Virus record (IMG/VR): IMGVR_UViG_3300043548_000130
Coordinates: 1-21,614 of that record
Strand: one strand, 5' to 3'
DNA from: a virus
Length of the DNA: 21,614 bases
Positions 5,365-10,734 of the stretch are shown here, piece after piece; within the stretch, counting starts at the first letter, position 1; every line of letters starts with the position of its first letter. The notes below the pieces were generated by a model. It searched no databases, was not told the DNA's origin, and saw only the letters and a list, made by a program, of their open reading frames with translations. The translations under genes were made by a program, and so were the position numbers.

Positions 5365-5528
5365 ATTTTACCAATAAAATATTTATCATATTTCAAGACA
5401 AATTTTGCTTCATCATTCACATCAAAAAAAATAACTACATCTTTATCATATGCAATTTTTTTCACATTATGAATCTCAACTTGTGATTCTCTATCACCTC
5501 GAAAATATGTTACGATATAATTATTCAT
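5361..5528 (-). CDS. Small hypothetical protein, 55 aa
   Basis: A short gene with ATGA overlaps at both ends: its ATG overlaps the TGA of the 66-residue gene upstream, and its own TGA overlaps the ATG of the 118-residue gene. The protein starts MNNYIVTYFRGDRESQVEIH, then has VKKIAYDKDVVIFFDVNDEA and ends KYDKYFIGKI. Alternating hydrophobic residues point to a small all-beta fold. No motif is recognised. The double overlap and protein-like composition make it a credible gene, though the region is AT-rich. Confidence 0.6.
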   Translation of the reverse strand: MNNYIVTYFRGDRESQVEIHNVKKIAYDKDVVIFFDVNDEAKFVLKYDKYFIGKI

Positions 5529-5725
5529 ACTGGAAAGGCTCTATATTTATTTGCGCTATCTTTTGTAAATTCAGGATTCGATGCCAAATGAAGTTCAAAT
5601 TCAATTTCTTGGGCAGTTTCAAAAGATGAAGTATCAATGCTTTCATCAATCATTTGCAATGATCCACCACCATTGAATCTCACCCACCAATCATTGTATT
5701 TACTTTTTTCTAATTTACCTAACAT
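5525..5725 (-). CDS. Small hypothetical protein, 66 aa, first gene after the RNA island
   Basis: A 66-residue protein starting MLGKLEKSKYNDWWVRFNGG, followed by a loop and an acidic helix (SSFETAQEIEFELHLASNPE). A longer frame begins at 5824, but that reading runs through the structured RNA island and an AT-rich leader, so the ATG at 5725 is chosen. A TATATTTG box lies about 32 bases upstream, so this is probably the first gene of the leftward operon. The protein is soluble, without cysteines or a signal. The family is unknown. Confidence 0.6.
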   Translation of the reverse strand: MLGKLEKSKYNDWWVRFNGGGSLQMIDESIDTSSFETAQEIEFELHLASNPEFTKDSANKYRAFPV

Positions 5726-5756
5726 ATTTATGGATTTATTAATTAATATACAATAA

Positions 5757-5764
5757 CAAATATA
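5757..5764 (-). promoter_or_regulatory. Candidate Bacteroidota-type -7 box for leftward operon
   Basis: On the minus strand the sequence is TATATTTG, an exact match to the Bacteroidota -7 consensus TAnnTTTG. It sits in a strongly AT-rich stretch, 32 bases before the ATG at 5725. No clear TTG-type -33 box is seen at the usual distance, so the promoter call rests on one element plus its position. Confidence 0.4.
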
Positions 5765-5799
5765 AGTAATAATATTTAATCCAGAGAATAGATCCTGAG

Positions 5800-6280
5800 C
5801 TAAAAGAGAATGAGAATATCCCACTGATAGTTACATCAGTTGTCATTCACTCTCTTTGCTTAAAAGTTCATTCAATCCGTCGAATGAGTCCTTTCGCTTT
5901 CAAGTTTCAAAGTATCACCGTTGACCTTTGACCTGGACACTACTTTAACGAGATAATCGGCTCTCGTGATGGTCTTGCGGCTTTGTCCTTAATGCTACCG
6001 CTGCGCTTCGCCATCATCCCCTTGTAACGCATACTCCTTTTAACCAAGCGTATTCACACCGCCATTAAAAGAATGCCGTCTATTCCGAGCTGTCAATTGA
6101 ATTCGAGTATTCAATCAGTAGCATACCACTACACTATCCACCGAGGGCGGTGATACCCCGCAGACATTGTGGCTTCTATTCCACCCATACCACAACAGTA
6201 TCAAAAAAAAGTTCCCCAATGATTTAAACGTGTTCAGCGCATTAAATCAAAGGGGAAAAATCACAATGCTGACTGAACAC
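5800..6280 (-). ncRNA. Candidate large structured non-coding RNA
   Basis: A gene-free stretch of about 590 bases (5726-6319) in which 5881-6180 is about 47% G+C by count, against roughly 25% just to its left. It is filled with hairpins. Stems (plus coordinates) include 5805-5813/5847-5855 enclosing 5823-5828/5835-5840, 5868-5873/5882-5887, 5948-5953/5962-5967, 6037-6043/6065-6071, 6096-6102/6109-6115, 6118-6121/6129-6132, 6139-6143/6148-6152 and 6167-6172/6190-6195. Two stems contain pairs that are G-U only if the minus strand is transcribed, which favours a leftward RNA. A TAnnTTTG box lies just upstream at 6283-6290. I could not match it to tmRNA, RNase P, an intron or a tRNA. Large ornate phage RNAs such as GOLLD and ROOL are precedents in kind only. 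The ends are approximate. Confidence 0.5.
6203..6257 (-). terminator. Intrinsic terminator / pseudoknot, leftward
   Basis: On the minus strand a 14-pair stem (6212-6217 with 6252-6257, and 6220-6227 with 6242-6249, interrupted by a 2x2 T mismatch) is followed at once by eight T (6203-6210). That is a textbook Rho-independent terminator for leftward transcripts coming from 6320-7857. Its loop carries one arm of a second perfect 8-base stem (6230-6237/6273-6280, extended by 6239-6243/6265-6269), so the two helices are either mutually exclusive or form a pseudoknot. Confidence 0.6.
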
Positions 6281-6282
6281 TA

Positions 6283-6290
6283 CAAAGATA
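6283..6290 (-). promoter_or_regulatory. Candidate -7 box (TATCTTTG) before the RNA island
   Basis: Minus-strand TATCTTTG matches the Bacteroidota -7 consensus TAnnTTTG. A start a few bases downstream would begin the transcript at the first strand of the 6273-6280 stem. A TTGAC lies only 8 bases upstream, too close for a normal -33 box. Moderate evidence only. Confidence 0.35.
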
Positions 6291-6319: not shown

Positions 6320-6517
6320 TTACTCACCACTTTTGAACAATTCGACTATTGTCATTGCAAGGACTACTGGCCAACAAATAGCAGTAAAGATTACTCCCAA
6401 AATGTTTTCACGAGTAAAAGGTAGGGAGTGGTATCGGATTATTACCAGCATCAAGCCAGTAAGTAATAAGGCGATCAGTGAATGCCACATAAAAAAAGAA
6501 GCTACAAGGTTGCTCAT
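6320..6517 (-). CDS. Small two-helix membrane protein, 65 aa
   Basis: A 65-residue protein starting MSNLVASFFMWHS. Two hydrophobic segments, about residues 3-26 (SLIALLLTGLMLVIIRY) and 38-60 (LGVIFTAICWPVVLAMTIV), flank a short polar loop RYHSLPFTREN, so it should span the inner membrane twice. A GTG at 6520 lies just before, but the ATG at 6517, two bases after the upstream TAG, is preferred. It is the last gene before the leftward terminator. Its small size and topology would allow a holin- or antiholin-like or superinfection role, but the likely holin is elsewhere (16252-16659) and no family is recognised. Confidence 0.6.
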   Translation of the reverse strand: MSNLVASFFMWHSLIALLLTGLMLVIIRYHSLPFTRENILGVIFTAICWPVVLAMTIVELFKSGE

Positions 6518-6519
6518 CA

Positions 6520-7008
6520 CTATTGAGATTTAGATTTTCTTCCACGTTTTTTCTTTTTGGGTTGCTCCTCCTCCATAAGTAGCACCTCCTCGCTTTTGAG
6601 TTGGTTGTGAAGGTCATCCACCATCTTTTTTACACAAGGAATACAACTGCTCACCTTGCCTTTGCTACCCTTCATCATCTCGTCGAATTCTGCAAGAAGT
6701 CTGCGCTGTGGATCAGTTAGCACATTGGTTGCCTTAACTGATTCAACTAACTCCTTTGCTTGTGCTTTCTTTTCAGCATCCACCACAATGGGCCATTTAC
6801 CCGCAGGGCAATCTTGGAAGGTCATCTTTGTTTTCAAATCCAAGAAACAACCGCAGGGCTTAAAGGTCACTCCATCAAGTGTAACTGGTTGCGCAAATGG
6901 ATTAAGTTTGTTTAGTGGAGTGCCACACGTTCGGGTTGTCGAATTGTAAACTGGACACTCGCGACAAATAGCCATTCGCATATTGGCCATTTCGATTATC
7001 TTATTCAT
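6520..7008 (-). CDS. Cys-rich, probably zinc-binding phage protein
   Basis: A 162-residue protein with an N-terminal cysteine cluster: C15-x2-C18, C28, C52-G-C54 and C67, in the pattern of a zinc-binding module (…MAICRECPVYN…, PCGCFLD, DCPAGKW). A second CxxC pair (C122, C125) lies in a predicted helix-rich C-terminal half. The very end is strongly basic (KKKKRGRKSKSQ), suggesting nucleic acid binding. Proteins with 'C..C…C…CGC…CP.GKW' are familiar in Bacteroidota phages without a known function. The stop lies two bases before the membrane protein start. The start at 7008 overlaps the sigma-like gene stop by four bases. Confidence 0.65.
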   Translation of the reverse strand: MNKIIEMANMRMAICRECPVYNSTTRTCGTPLNKLNPFAQPVTLDGVTFKPCGCFLDLKTKMTFQDCPAGKWPIVVDAEKKAQAKELVESVKATNVLTDPQRRLLAEFDEMMKGSKGKVSSCIPCVKKMVDDLHNQLKSEEVLLMEEEQPKKKKRGRKSKSQ

Positions 7009-7857: not shown

Positions 7858-7956
7858 TGGACTAAATTAAACACAATTTTGATACCATCCACAAAAAAAA
7901 ATGCATCTTGAAACCCGCATAAACATTGAAAAACTAAAAATATTTTAATTTTTTTC

Positions 7957-7986
7957 TTGACACATTAAAATTTATTTCTATATTTG
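7957..7986 (+). promoter_or_regulatory. Bacteroidota-type promoter for the rightward early block
   Basis: TTGACA at 7957-7962 and TATATTTG at 7979-7986, separated by 16 bases, in a very AT-rich divergent intergenic region (7858-8014). TATATTTG fits the Bacteroidota -7 consensus TAnnTTTG exactly. The first gene starts 29 bases downstream at 8015 and has an A-rich leader, not a Shine-Dalgarno sequence. Apart from this, the intergenic region holds an A9 run (about 7892-7900) and no other clear element. Confidence 0.65.
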
Positions 7987-8014
7987 CCAAACAAACAACG
8001 AAACAATTAAACAA

Positions 8015-8167
8015 ATGAAAAACGAAACACAATCAAAAATTCAATTTGGAACTGGAGAAGATGCTGTAATTCACATTGTTGACACTTCTCAAGTTGATTC
8101 ATATTTAAAGCATTTAAGCATCTTAGGTTGGAATATGCATGAAATAACATCAATTTCTGTAATATAA
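8015..8167 (+). CDS. Small hypothetical protein, 50 aa, first early gene
   Basis: A 50-residue gene directly behind the promoter at 7957-7986. The protein starts MKNETQSKIQFGTGEDAVIH, continues through a hydrophobic strand and a helix (SQVDSYLKHLSILGWN) and ends EITSISVI before TAA. It is acidic-to-neutral, with no cysteines. The size and first-in-operon position are typical of phage early host-takeover proteins, which is only an analogy. The codon use resembles its neighbours. It is followed by a 55-base gap with a GTGCG/CGCAC hairpin (8179-8197). Confidence 0.6.
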   Translation: MKNETQSKIQFGTGEDAVIHIVDTSQVDSYLKHLSILGWNMHEITSISVI

Positions 8168-8849: not shown

Positions 8850-9184
8850 GAGATTGGAAAGAAATGGATGAGCAGGACTGCATTCAAAGGATGGATGCGC
8901 TCAATGTCAAAGGCAGTTATGGAGGTGCAACGTACATAGTTAATTCCATCAATGGTGAATTTTGGGAATGGGTTATGCCAATTGCACAGGTACACGGCCA
9001 CAAATTAGATAACAAGTTTGTTGTGTGGTACGATTGCCAAGACAAATTTATGCGATTGAGAGGGATCAATAAGGACAAAACCGCATCCTCATCAATGAAA
9101 ATTTGGGAAGGTATTATGCCGCCGCAGTTGTTATCAGTTTACAACGAATTAAAACAAGTAAAAATCAAAACCATAGAAATATGA
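8846..9184 (+). CDS. Hypothetical phage protein, 112 aa
   Basis: A 112-residue protein starting MRDWKEMDEQDCIQRMDAL. It is rich in Trp and acidic residues, with a strand-rich middle (GGATYIVNSINGEFWEWVMP, KFVVWYDCQDKFMRLRG) and a C-terminal helix (PPQLLSVYNELKQVKIK). It starts and ends in ATGA overlaps, the last with the SSB-like gene, so the two are translationally coupled and may work together at the replication fork. That is inference from position only. No family is recognised. Confidence 0.6.
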   Translation: MRDWKEMDEQDCIQRMDALNVKGSYGGATYIVNSINGEFWEWVMPIAQVHGHKLDNKFVVWYDCQDKFMRLRGINKDKTASSSMKIWEGIMPPQLLSVYNELKQVKIKTIEI

Positions 9185-9633
9185 AAACAAGTAAAATCAA
9201 GTCCATTCAAAACAATGGCACCTGGAAAGACCTCTTTAAGTTCGAGGTCGAAATGGAAAACGGAGATGTCGGCGGTTGCTTCGCTGCATCACAAGAACCT
9301 CCCTTCAAAGTTGGAGATGAAAAACAGTATGACTATACTCAAAATGGTAGGTACTGGAATATTAAATTTGCGAAGGAGCAGAAACCAGCGTGGAATGGTG
9401 GTGGTGGAAAGTCCTTTGTCAAAGAAGATAAGTCAGCAGACATCGCTCGTGCTGTTGCGTTGAAGGCAGCAGTTGACCTCCATAAAGGAGAAGGCGAACC
9501 CATCAACCAACAGATTGGGATGATATGCGCCACTGCTCAGGCTTTTGAAATCTATTTAACATCAGGCGAAAATCCGTACAAAGATGCGATCGCTGATGGC
9601 AAATCTAACAACGCTGATGACCTCCCTTTTTAA
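9181..9633 (+). CDS. Putative single-stranded DNA-binding (OB-fold-like) protein
   Basis: A 150-residue protein starting MKTSKIKSIQNNGTWKDLFK. The N-terminal half (residues 1-65) is a run of strands with GDVGGCFAASQEPPFKVGDE, consistent with an OB fold. A Gly-rich linker (WNGGGGKSF, about 78-86) precedes a helical segment. The last residues (NNADDLPF) end in an acidic tail with a terminal Phe, like the DDIPF tail by which bacterial SSB recruits replication partners. A longer frame begins at 9103 but lies within the previous gene; the ATG at 9181 overlaps the preceding stop (ATGA). The SSB function is inferred from the tail and context, not from a clear sequence match to SSB. Confidence 0.5.
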   Translation: MKTSKIKSIQNNGTWKDLFKFEVEMENGDVGGCFAASQEPPFKVGDEKQYDYTQNGRYWNIKFAKEQKPAWNGGGGKSFVKEDKSADIARAVALKAAVDLHKGEGEPINQQIGMICATAQAFEIYLTSGENPYKDAIADGKSNNADDLPF

Positions 9634-9691
9634 GGGGGGTTATCAATTTTGATAGCCCGAAAGATTTAATTGATTACTTAAAAAAGTTAAA

Positions 9692-9919
9692 ATGAAATTT
9701 AGAACCTTAATAAGAACGCACTACCCATCCACCTACGAATTTGCAAAGGCGATGGGAGTGACTTGGCCAACTGGTCGCAAGTATGAAACGTACCCAATCA
9801 CAATGAGTATCCATCACATTGATAAGTTATCCAAGTTGATTGGAGTTGACAAATGCGAATTGATCTCATTGGCGGTTGATGAAAATACAAACGAACACGA
9901 ACCTGTAAATTATTTGTAA
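9692..9919 (+). CDS. Small helix-turn-helix DNA-binding protein
   Basis: A 75-residue protein in the style of Cro/CI-like regulators. MKFRTLIRTHYPSTYEFAKA begins with a recognition-type helix pair (EFAKAMGVTWPTGRKY), with GV-turn and an arginine in the second helix. This is followed by HHIDKLSKLIGVDKCELISL, the usual third and fourth helices. It probably binds DNA as a small regulator of the early/late switch or of the replication region. It follows a 58-base gap with a stem (9638-9645/9650-9657) and no T run. No partner repressor or integrase is seen, so lysogeny cannot be inferred. Confidence 0.6.
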   Translation: MKFRTLIRTHYPSTYEFAKAMGVTWPTGRKYETYPITMSIHHIDKLSKLIGVDKCELISLAVDENTNEHEPVNYL

Positions 9920-9920
9920 G

Positions 9921-10148
9921 ATGAGTAAACAAACAGCAACGCAGTATCTTATTAAAGAGATAAAAAATGATTCATTAGTACAAGCTAAAAGTACTGAAGA
10001 ATGGAATAAGGTATTTCAAATAGCACTACAAATGGAACGTGAGCAGATTTTAAATACATTTAAAGTTGCGCAAGTCTTTGAAATTATGAAATATCCAACA
10101 ATCGCTGCTCAATACTACGAACAAACATACGGAGGTCAAGATGAATGA
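9921..10148 (+). CDS. Small conserved phage protein, 75 aa
   Basis: A 75-residue helical protein starting MSKQTATQYLIKEIKNDSLV. A helix with EEWNKVFQIALQMEREQILN is followed by EIMKYPTIAAQYYEQTYGG. The phrase 'A..ME.EQI..' followed by 'A.QYY..TYGG' is familiar from small proteins of Bacteroidota phages (also echoed at 13877-14101). The role is unknown. It starts one base after the HTH gene stop and overlaps the DnaA-like gene start by eight bases. Confidence 0.65.
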   Translation: MSKQTATQYLIKEIKNDSLVQAKSTEEWNKVFQIALQMEREQILNTFKVAQVFEIMKYPTIAAQYYEQTYGGQDE

Positions 10149-10734
10149 TATGCTATTAAAAGTGGTTGACAATATGTACGTACAATCACGTAAGCAATTC
10201 ATATTATTGCGTGAATTGTTATCAAACACCACACCTGAAATAATTGAGCAATTAGATGCGCTCATCGTGCATTTTGATTCCAAGAAAACATTAGATGAGA
10301 TTTTATTTGAATGTGCAGAAGATTATTTTGGAGTGAGCAGGGAAGAAATAATCTCACGCACACGCAAAAGAGCGATTGCCGATGCTCGTTCAATGTGCAT
10401 TTCATTTATGGCCTTTGCCGATTATAAGATAACGTGGCAGGACATTGGTCGCAAGTTCGGTATGGATCACTCCAGTGCGTTACATTCAGCAAAAAAGTTC
10501 TGCGACCTCTACAAATGTGACGATCAATGGAGGCATTCCGCTAATGATTTTTTTGCGACTCTTGAAAAATATGGCTATAATTGCGAACAAACTAAACAAA
10601 AACTACGTAATGGATGCGAATACTTTGTACTTAAAGGTTCAATTACTCGAGCAGAGGATAACCTTACTCGAAAGTCAATTGAACAACCAACAAATAAAAT
10701 CGAAAGGATGTCATTTCATTGCGCCATCTCTTGA
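10141..10734 (+). CDS. DnaA domain IV-like (Bac_DnaA_C) replication protein
   Basis: A 197-residue protein. Residues 57-125 match the C-terminal DNA-binding domain of DnaA: CAEDYFGVSREEIISRTRKR (first helix and basic loop), ITWQDIGRKFG, and the DnaA signature-like DHSSALHSAKKF at 109-120, where DH and the small residues contact the origin box. There is no AAA+ ATPase domain, so it could mark the phage origin or regulate but not melt DNA alone. The last ~40 codons (10610-10734) overlap the next gene in another frame and look less protein-like there. A T7 run lies at 10549-10555 (codons NDFF). Confidence 0.75.
   Translation: MNDMLLKVVDNMYVQSRKQFILLRELLSNTTPEIIEQLDALIVHFDSKKTLDEILFECAEDYFGVSREEIISRTRKRAIADARSMCISFMAFADYKITWQDIGRKFGMDHSSALHSAKKFCDLYKCDDQWRHSANDFFATLEKYGYNCEQTKQKLRNGCEYFVLKGSITRAEDNLTRKSIEQPTNKIERMSFHCAIS

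Follow-up and report, generated by a model that had tools for sequence, protein, structure and literature searches.

The stretch of DNA analysed here (hereafter the window) is an entire virus record of 21,614 bases. Its source is an uncultivated Bacteroidetes phage, whose TerL shares 45% identity with its counterpart in Flavobacterium phage 11b and whose promoters are of the Bacteroidetes type. Between a small membrane-protein gene and the next minus-strand gene lies an island in which positions 6290 to 5778, read on the minus strand, encode a structured noncoding RNA of about 0.5 kb. Its parts follow each other in the order -7 box, 5' H-type pseudoknot, variable insert (or tRNA-like part) and a structured element that we call C:

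6520-7008: p162 protein gene, the neighbouring protein used as search query
6320-6520, minus strand: small membrane-protein gene, upstream neighbour of the RNA island
6283-6290, minus strand: -7 promoter box TATCTTTG (Bacteroidetes type TAnnTTTG), identified by sequence and conservation
6214-6280, minus strand: 5' H-type pseudoknot, supported by covariation in alignment A3
6280-6273 with 6237-6230, minus strand: pseudoknot stem S1, GTGTTCAG/CTGAACAC
6255-6242 with 6228-6214, minus strand: pseudoknot stem S2, containing a tandem U-U mismatch
6203-6210, minus strand: U-run after the pseudoknot, read from sequences
6075-6202, minus strand: variable insert, a stem closed by GATAC..GTATC plus a D-arm-like stem-loop
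5778-6074, minus strand: element C, a structured RNA of about 297 nt, supported by covariation in alignments A2, A6 and A7
5757-5764, minus strand: -7 box of the next gene, TATATTTG, identified by sequence

An earlier sequence-only reading had placed an RNA island at 5800-6280, with no plausible protein, a G+C content above that of its AT-rich surroundings and -7 boxes at 6283-6290 and 5757-5764, and these three claims held. The sole long frame across the island (5525-5824) arises when the downstream gene is extended to a GTG start, and in relatives the frame able to start at C is interrupted by 1-nt indels and stop codons; G+C is 0.465 at 5900-6099 and 0.480 at 6000-6199, against 0.28-0.33 immediately to the left; and both boxes are present on the minus strand. 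The boundaries fared less well at one end, since 5800 truncates the 3' end, while 6280 is close to the expected transcription start; the element most likely extends from about 6280 to at least 5778. As for the at least eight short stems that had been listed, folding the sequence alone gives only a moderate advantage over shuffles (z -2.1 on the minus strand, z -3.7 on the plus strand). Such stems are weak proof, and it is the comparative test that carries the case.

Known families offered no help at this level: the whole window contains no Rfam family at gathering score and no tRNA was found in it, while a permissive Rfam scan (E<=10) returned four weak matches, all nonsensical. C is better conserved than the neighbouring genes. 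The identity of the p162 protein drops to 45-58%, whereas 25 C sequences (alignment A2) hold 84% mean column identity, and the genes downstream of C vary among phages (p5525, p5008 and others) with C unchanged.

A common 5' unit: promoter box and pseudoknot

The motif TAnnTTTG stands at the 5' start of the pseudoknot, at the same distance, in 58 of 69 related loci, against a background of 0.6% of 12-nt windows. Many of these 58 loci are related, hence they are not 58 independent events, and 34 were originally collected by a pattern demanding most of TTTG. From the usual spacing of such boxes, the first pseudoknot stem is inferred to begin at about the first transcribed base.

The pseudoknot itself, defined as two crossing helices with compensatory changes, is well supported. 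Across the 34 sequences of A3, its 16 pairs are formed in 98.9% of cells and six are changed on both sides (hereafter double-changed); covariation is 0.265 compared to 0.080 +- 0.011 in shuffles (0/500 as high), and controls with slid partners do not exceed 0.028. A pseudoknot profile matches 69 of the 73 loci that could be assessed (see below), and L161 has no pseudoknot at the slot. The tandem U-U mismatch of S2 recurs, by eye, in phages with quite different stem sequences, such as L165 (GUCCCC-UU-GAG/CUC-UU-GGGGAC) and L225 (CCCCC-UU-UUGUUU/AAAACAA-UU-GGGGG). Three loci beyond the 69, L149, L154 and L158, have by eye a variant pseudoknot with the S2 strands swapped (ATTCCG-TT-GGGG/CCCC-TT-CGGAAT) and the tandem mismatch kept. 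In L009, imperfect AT-rich repeats (acagaaattagt..aactata) form an array of about 0.5 kb between mem66 and the pseudoknot.

What follows the pseudoknot is variable. The insert of the window is shared with L009, its place being taken in other phages by a tRNA-like element or by nothing, and in relatives without an insert the U-run provides the 5' strand of C helix P1 or the start of one of two other elements, A and D. The tRNA-like elements retain acceptor, D and T arms and have an altered anticodon arm; ARAGORN accepts a single canonical tRNA at this place, a tRNA-Leu(taa) in L025. We noted tRNA-like elements between the pseudoknot and C or A in L002, L005, L007, L010, L017, L018, L022, L062 and L065.

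An exchangeable slot

A search with p162 gave 31 related phage loci and a p162 profile 79, which makes 80 loci including the window; seven stop short of the region, leaving 73. The slot after the pseudoknot holds C in 30 of them, A in 25 and D in 18, and none holds two. Profile search identified the C and A loci, and D was recognised from the sequences themselves, two of the D being truncated by the contig end. The stretch after p162 is thus modular, and C, A and D are unrelated RNAs present one per locus.

D shows five helices in 14 sequences, with 100% pairing, 13 of 25 pairs double-changed and 0/500 shuffles reaching its covariation. Covariation in A is less certain (six pairs are double-changed and several are broken), and its hairpin loop comes in lengths one base apart, an argument against a reading frame. 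No convincing Rfam match was obtained for A or D. When D was sought in other viruses, most extra pattern matches were due to chance and lay inside protein genes; one was true, in L201, which belongs to the same phage group.

The following describe the two alternative occupants. D is a structured RNA of about 330 nt with strong covariation, filling the first ~340 nt after the pseudoknot (L106, L107, L112, L117, L121, L124, L126, L131, L133, L136, L137, L148, L151-L153 and L159). A, the third RNA, measures about 110 nt and is followed by a long pyrimidine-rich run (CTTTTTCTTTTCTTTC...); it was seen in L004, L011, L014, L017-L020, L022, L023, L025 and L028-L031.

Element C is a folded RNA under selection

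The helices of C, all on the minus strand, are:

6035-6073, minus strand: P1 hairpin, 6073-6064 with 6044-6035; 7/10 pairs double-changed (A7); conserved loop 6063-6045, invariant U-G pair on the loop side
6003-6030, minus strand: P2, GCGUU 6030-6026 with AGCGC 6007-6003; 100% paired, one pair double-changed and one with a one-sided change (A7)
5968-6015, minus strand: P3, 6015-6011 with 5972-5968; 3/5 pairs double-changed, 100% paired
5977-6001, minus strand: P4, 6001-5997 with 5981-5977; 2/5 pairs double-changed
5935-5988, minus strand: loop-tail pseudoknot, GGACA 5988-5984 (P4 loop) with UGUCC 5939-5935; 3/5 pairs double-changed
5948-5967, minus strand: P5, 5967-5962 with 5953-5948; 4/6 pairs double-changed
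5907-5931, minus strand: P6, 5931-5922 with 5917-5907; 6/10 pairs double-changed
5803-5857, minus strand: P7 long hairpin, AAAGAGA 5857-5851 with UCUCUUU 5809-5803, read from sequences
5839-5836 with 5827-5824, minus strand: P7 inner stem, CUGA/UCAG

The 5' strand of P3 sits in the P2 loop, so that P2 and P3 form a pseudoknot. Several helices exist in alternative versions: P2 is GCACU/AGUGC in a second phage group, and the loop-tail pseudoknot occurs as GGACA/TGTCC, GGGTA/TACCC and GGAGT/ACTCC, to which GGAAT/ATTCC (L225) and GGTAT/ATACC (L224) can be added by eye. P7, whose variants CTGA/TCAG, CCAAC/GTTGG, AAGAGAG/CTCTCTT and others were read from sequences, was left out of the formal pair counts because MAFFT misaligns that part.

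Compensatory changes in homologous loci had been set beforehand as the test, and C passes it strongly. RNAalifold on A2 revealed P1, and the helix count in this alignment gave 99.5% paired cells and 16 double-changed pairs, with covariation reached in 0/500 shuffles. A second phage group also carries C (L162, L164-L168, L170 and L173-L175), as do the divergent members L155 and L161. With second-group and divergent members added (A6, 29 sequences), pairing reaches 99.8% in P3 to P6 plus the loop-tail pseudoknot, double changes affect 18 of the 31 pairs, and covariation is 0.355 against 0.134 +- 0.010 in shuffles (0/500) and at most 0.078 in slid controls. For P1 and P2 (A7), covariation is 0.489 and that of shuffles 0.214 +- 0.021 (0/500), and the slid controls fail here as well. 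Two reservations apply: the helices were drawn from the same sequences and their variation, which makes the slid controls somewhat favourable, and the shuffle tests are inflated by kinship of the sequences, the safer evidence being the number of distinct compensated pairs. There are also U-G pairs, some of them invariant, that are possible only in the minus-strand sense. Compensatory changes thus prove that C is a real folded RNA under selection; the broader claim of a self-standing, leftward structured RNA is supported, its structure being proven and its own transcript inferred. One candidate helix, an extension of P1 (GGCG/CGCU), was dropped, since its pairing fails in L067 and the Rfam class Betaproteobacteria-1 shows no evident counterpart.

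Twin sites that change in lockstep

C contains two copies of a short site:

5874-5885, minus strand: internal twin, ATTC-GAC-GGATT, its pentamer identical to that of the terminal twin
5778-5789, minus strand: terminal twin, ATTC-TCT-GGATT, at the 3' border of C

The general form is ATTC-GAC-XGAWT inside and ATTC-TCT-XGAWT at the 3' end. The pentamers, 96 nt apart, come in eight versions among phages, yet they match within each element, and the three variable letters (the second T of ATTC, X and W) are equal in both copies in 32/32 distinct elements. On a tree built without the twin letters, these positions changed two, five and two times, and all nine changes fall on the same branches in both copies. 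The pentamers also agree in 20 additional contigs with both sites (near-identical ones included), which bring the new versions AGAGT, GGAGT and AAGCA; in eight of these 20, the triplet before the pentamer differs (TTC vs ATC). The copies are identical, not complementary, and mutual information disclosed no third site pairing with both twins. We see no better explanation for this lockstep than one partner reading both copies, which remains an inference. In L260, which has a more distant RNA, the twin appears by eye to be longer (AGGGGTATTTA).

A remote branch of the Betaproteobacteria-1 class

The nearest described relative of C, not named by the sequence-only reading, is Betaproteobacteria-1 (RF02932), a class whose function is unknown. 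RF02932 gives no useful score against the window's own C (the gathering cut-off of 49.4 bits is not met). In a permissive Rfam scan of L164, however, it matched over its full length (1-120) on the right strand with 34.8 bits (E 6.7e-05), and in three second-group phage records it was the sole match, at C, with 32.6-35.2 bits, compared to a background reaching 25.8 bits in a 3.4-Mb genome. The relationship was further tested on the P1 and P2 hairpins, which keep the conserved loop letters and agree with RF02932 in order and strand. Among 398 Pseudomonadota genomes, RF02932 matched in four.

The reverse test used R2, a model built from C only, with filters off over 31 kb comprising six RF02932 matches and control pieces. 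The top four hits were all RF02932 matches in register, namely L214 (29.7 bits, E 4.7e-06), L212 (21.0 bits, E 7.5e-04), L211 (13.4 bits, E 0.062) and L215 (10.4 bits, E 0.36), two of which are significant alone; R2 missed L213 and L216 at their RNA.

The gap is bridged by intermediates. A pattern scan for Betaproteobacteria-1 returned 65 viral contigs, about ten of which we estimate to be expected by chance, and RF02932 scored above cut-off in 7/16 viral loci tested (87-97 bits), which makes this a phage-borne class with a misleading name. (The members above cut-off are L227, L230, L238, L247, L252, L256 and L263.) Intermediate groups (L225-type and L224-type) have the gene order of the window, with p5008 at ~53% and p162 at 27-40% identity, and a pseudoknot of the same kind at least in L225; R2 detects the intermediate phages L224, L266, L225 and L237. 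C is therefore, via these intermediates, a remote, longer branch of the Betaproteobacteria-1 class, which we do not file as an RF02932 member since it is below the Rfam cut-off.

Outside uncultivated viruses, C was elusive. Among 395 Bacteroidota genomes there were 0 matches with model R1 and 0 with RF02932; eight pattern matches turned up in bacterial genome contigs, in none of which a profile search found C; and searches of named phages and plasmids gave no C either, with none in 50,697 phage records. On a bacterial chromosome, L217 carries a Betaproteobacteria-1-like RNA (7941-8030) near an integrase-like gene (9182-10423, named by eye).

What the RNA may do

The explanation that we favour, with moderate confidence and with both transcription and function inferred, is a self-transcribed, trans-acting phage RNA with twin-site recognition and effectors exchanged in a slot. 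In this view, (i) the island RNA would be transcribed on its own during infection, for which there are no RNA-seq data, (ii) the pseudoknot at its first transcribed bases would hide the 5' end from end-dependent decay and yield a stable RNA, (iii) C would fold into a compact multi-pseudoknot body working in trans, (iv) the twins would be a duplicated recognition site read by one partner (RNA, DNA strand or protein), which would differ between phages or hosts, and (v) C, A and D would be alternative effector RNAs swapped by recombination behind a common 5' unit. Such exchange would fit a host-specific job (host take-over or counter-defence) better than housekeeping. However, no partner, defence system or protein has been linked to the RNA, and exchange and variability are the only grounds for inferring action in trans and counter-defence.

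Several rivals deserve consideration. A scaffold resembling the phage RNAs GOLLD and ROOL, in which C would self-assemble without protein into a homo-oligomer, perhaps around the tRNA-like part, remains possible: phage location, several pseudoknots, very high conservation and tRNA-like elements in the transcript all fit, cage-forming GOLLD and ROOL are themselves phage RNAs near tRNAs (PMC12286853), and identity-locked twins could make intermolecular contacts. Against it, C is at most half as long as GOLLD/ROOL and resembles them neither in sequence nor by model. We have less sympathy for a cis-acting leader or attenuator, in which pseudoknot and U-run would stop or pass transcription of the next gene. 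The U-run does resemble an intrinsic terminator and C ends directly before a gene, but that gene has its own -7 box and varies while C is constant, and the U-run doubles as a P1 strand of C in relatives.

A ribozyme or intron-like mobile RNA, with P1 pairing the 5' flank via the invariant U-G and the internal twin copying the 3' flank, seems more improbable still. It would account for a P1 whose 5' strand is contributed by the flank and covaries with the interior, for the terminal twin at the 3' border of C and for the one Betaproteobacteria-1-like copy near an integrase-like gene. However, there is no match to a group I/II intron or known ribozyme at E<=10, no empty site turned up, the order of the P4-loop pseudoknot is not that of group I, and the twins are identical rather than complementary, without a covarying third pairing site. 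Finally, a protein-gene remnant with chance stems, the outcome that would have refuted the sequence-only reading, can be virtually ruled out: some relatives have a short frame with an ATG at P1, but others have a stop at codon 4 and 1-nt indels, and what is seen is base-pair compensation rather than codon constraint.

Returning to the trans-acting RNA, a bolder version is a cassette slot in which a common promoter and pseudoknot would drive one of at least three unrelated effector RNAs swapped between phages, C having programmable twin recognition. We advance it tentatively, being more inclined to doubt than to accept it; if true, the twin sequence would let C single out an RNA, DNA or protein target specific to the phage or host. 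For Betaproteobacteria-1, the findings add a place in phages, further structural elements and a well-defined gene neighbourhood; the slot shows phages exchanging whole structured RNAs; and through the identity-locked twin pentamers, what the RNA recognises can be tested directly.

Comparison with known systems

The sequence-only reading had invoked GOLLD and ROOL, a comparison that was right in kind and wrong in family. Like the window RNA, these are large pseudoknotted noncoding RNAs of phages with tRNAs nearby or inside (PMC12286853), but C has ~300 nt versus 600-800 and different helices, and the Rfam models of GOLLD and ROOL gave no covariance-model match to the window RNA. The covariance searches proposed at the outset (GOLLD, ROOL, tmRNA and introns) were likewise without a match. 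tmRNA shares with the window RNA the presence of a tRNA-like element and pseudoknots in one transcript; unlike tmRNA, the window RNA has no tag frame, its tRNA-like part is optional, and neither ARAGORN nor Rfam reported a tmRNA match. A group I intron was considered and rejected, with no match at E<=10 and the core order P3-P4-P6-P7-P8 not met; a group I reading of P1 is unsupported, and the GGACA/UGUCC helix starts inside the P4 loop.

The likeness to Betaproteobacteria-1 is closer. Both have a P1 loop GG(U)CGG..RAA.ACG.CAG followed by a P2 hairpin loop with ACU..GGGAU, in the same order and on the same strand, and typical Betaproteobacteria-1 members, like C, are found in phage contigs. The best C homologs reach 35 bits against a cut-off of 49.4, and C differs from that class in being longer (P5-P7 and the twin sites), in residing in Bacteroidetes-type phages, and in having a 5' pseudoknot ahead of it and a place in an exchangeable slot.
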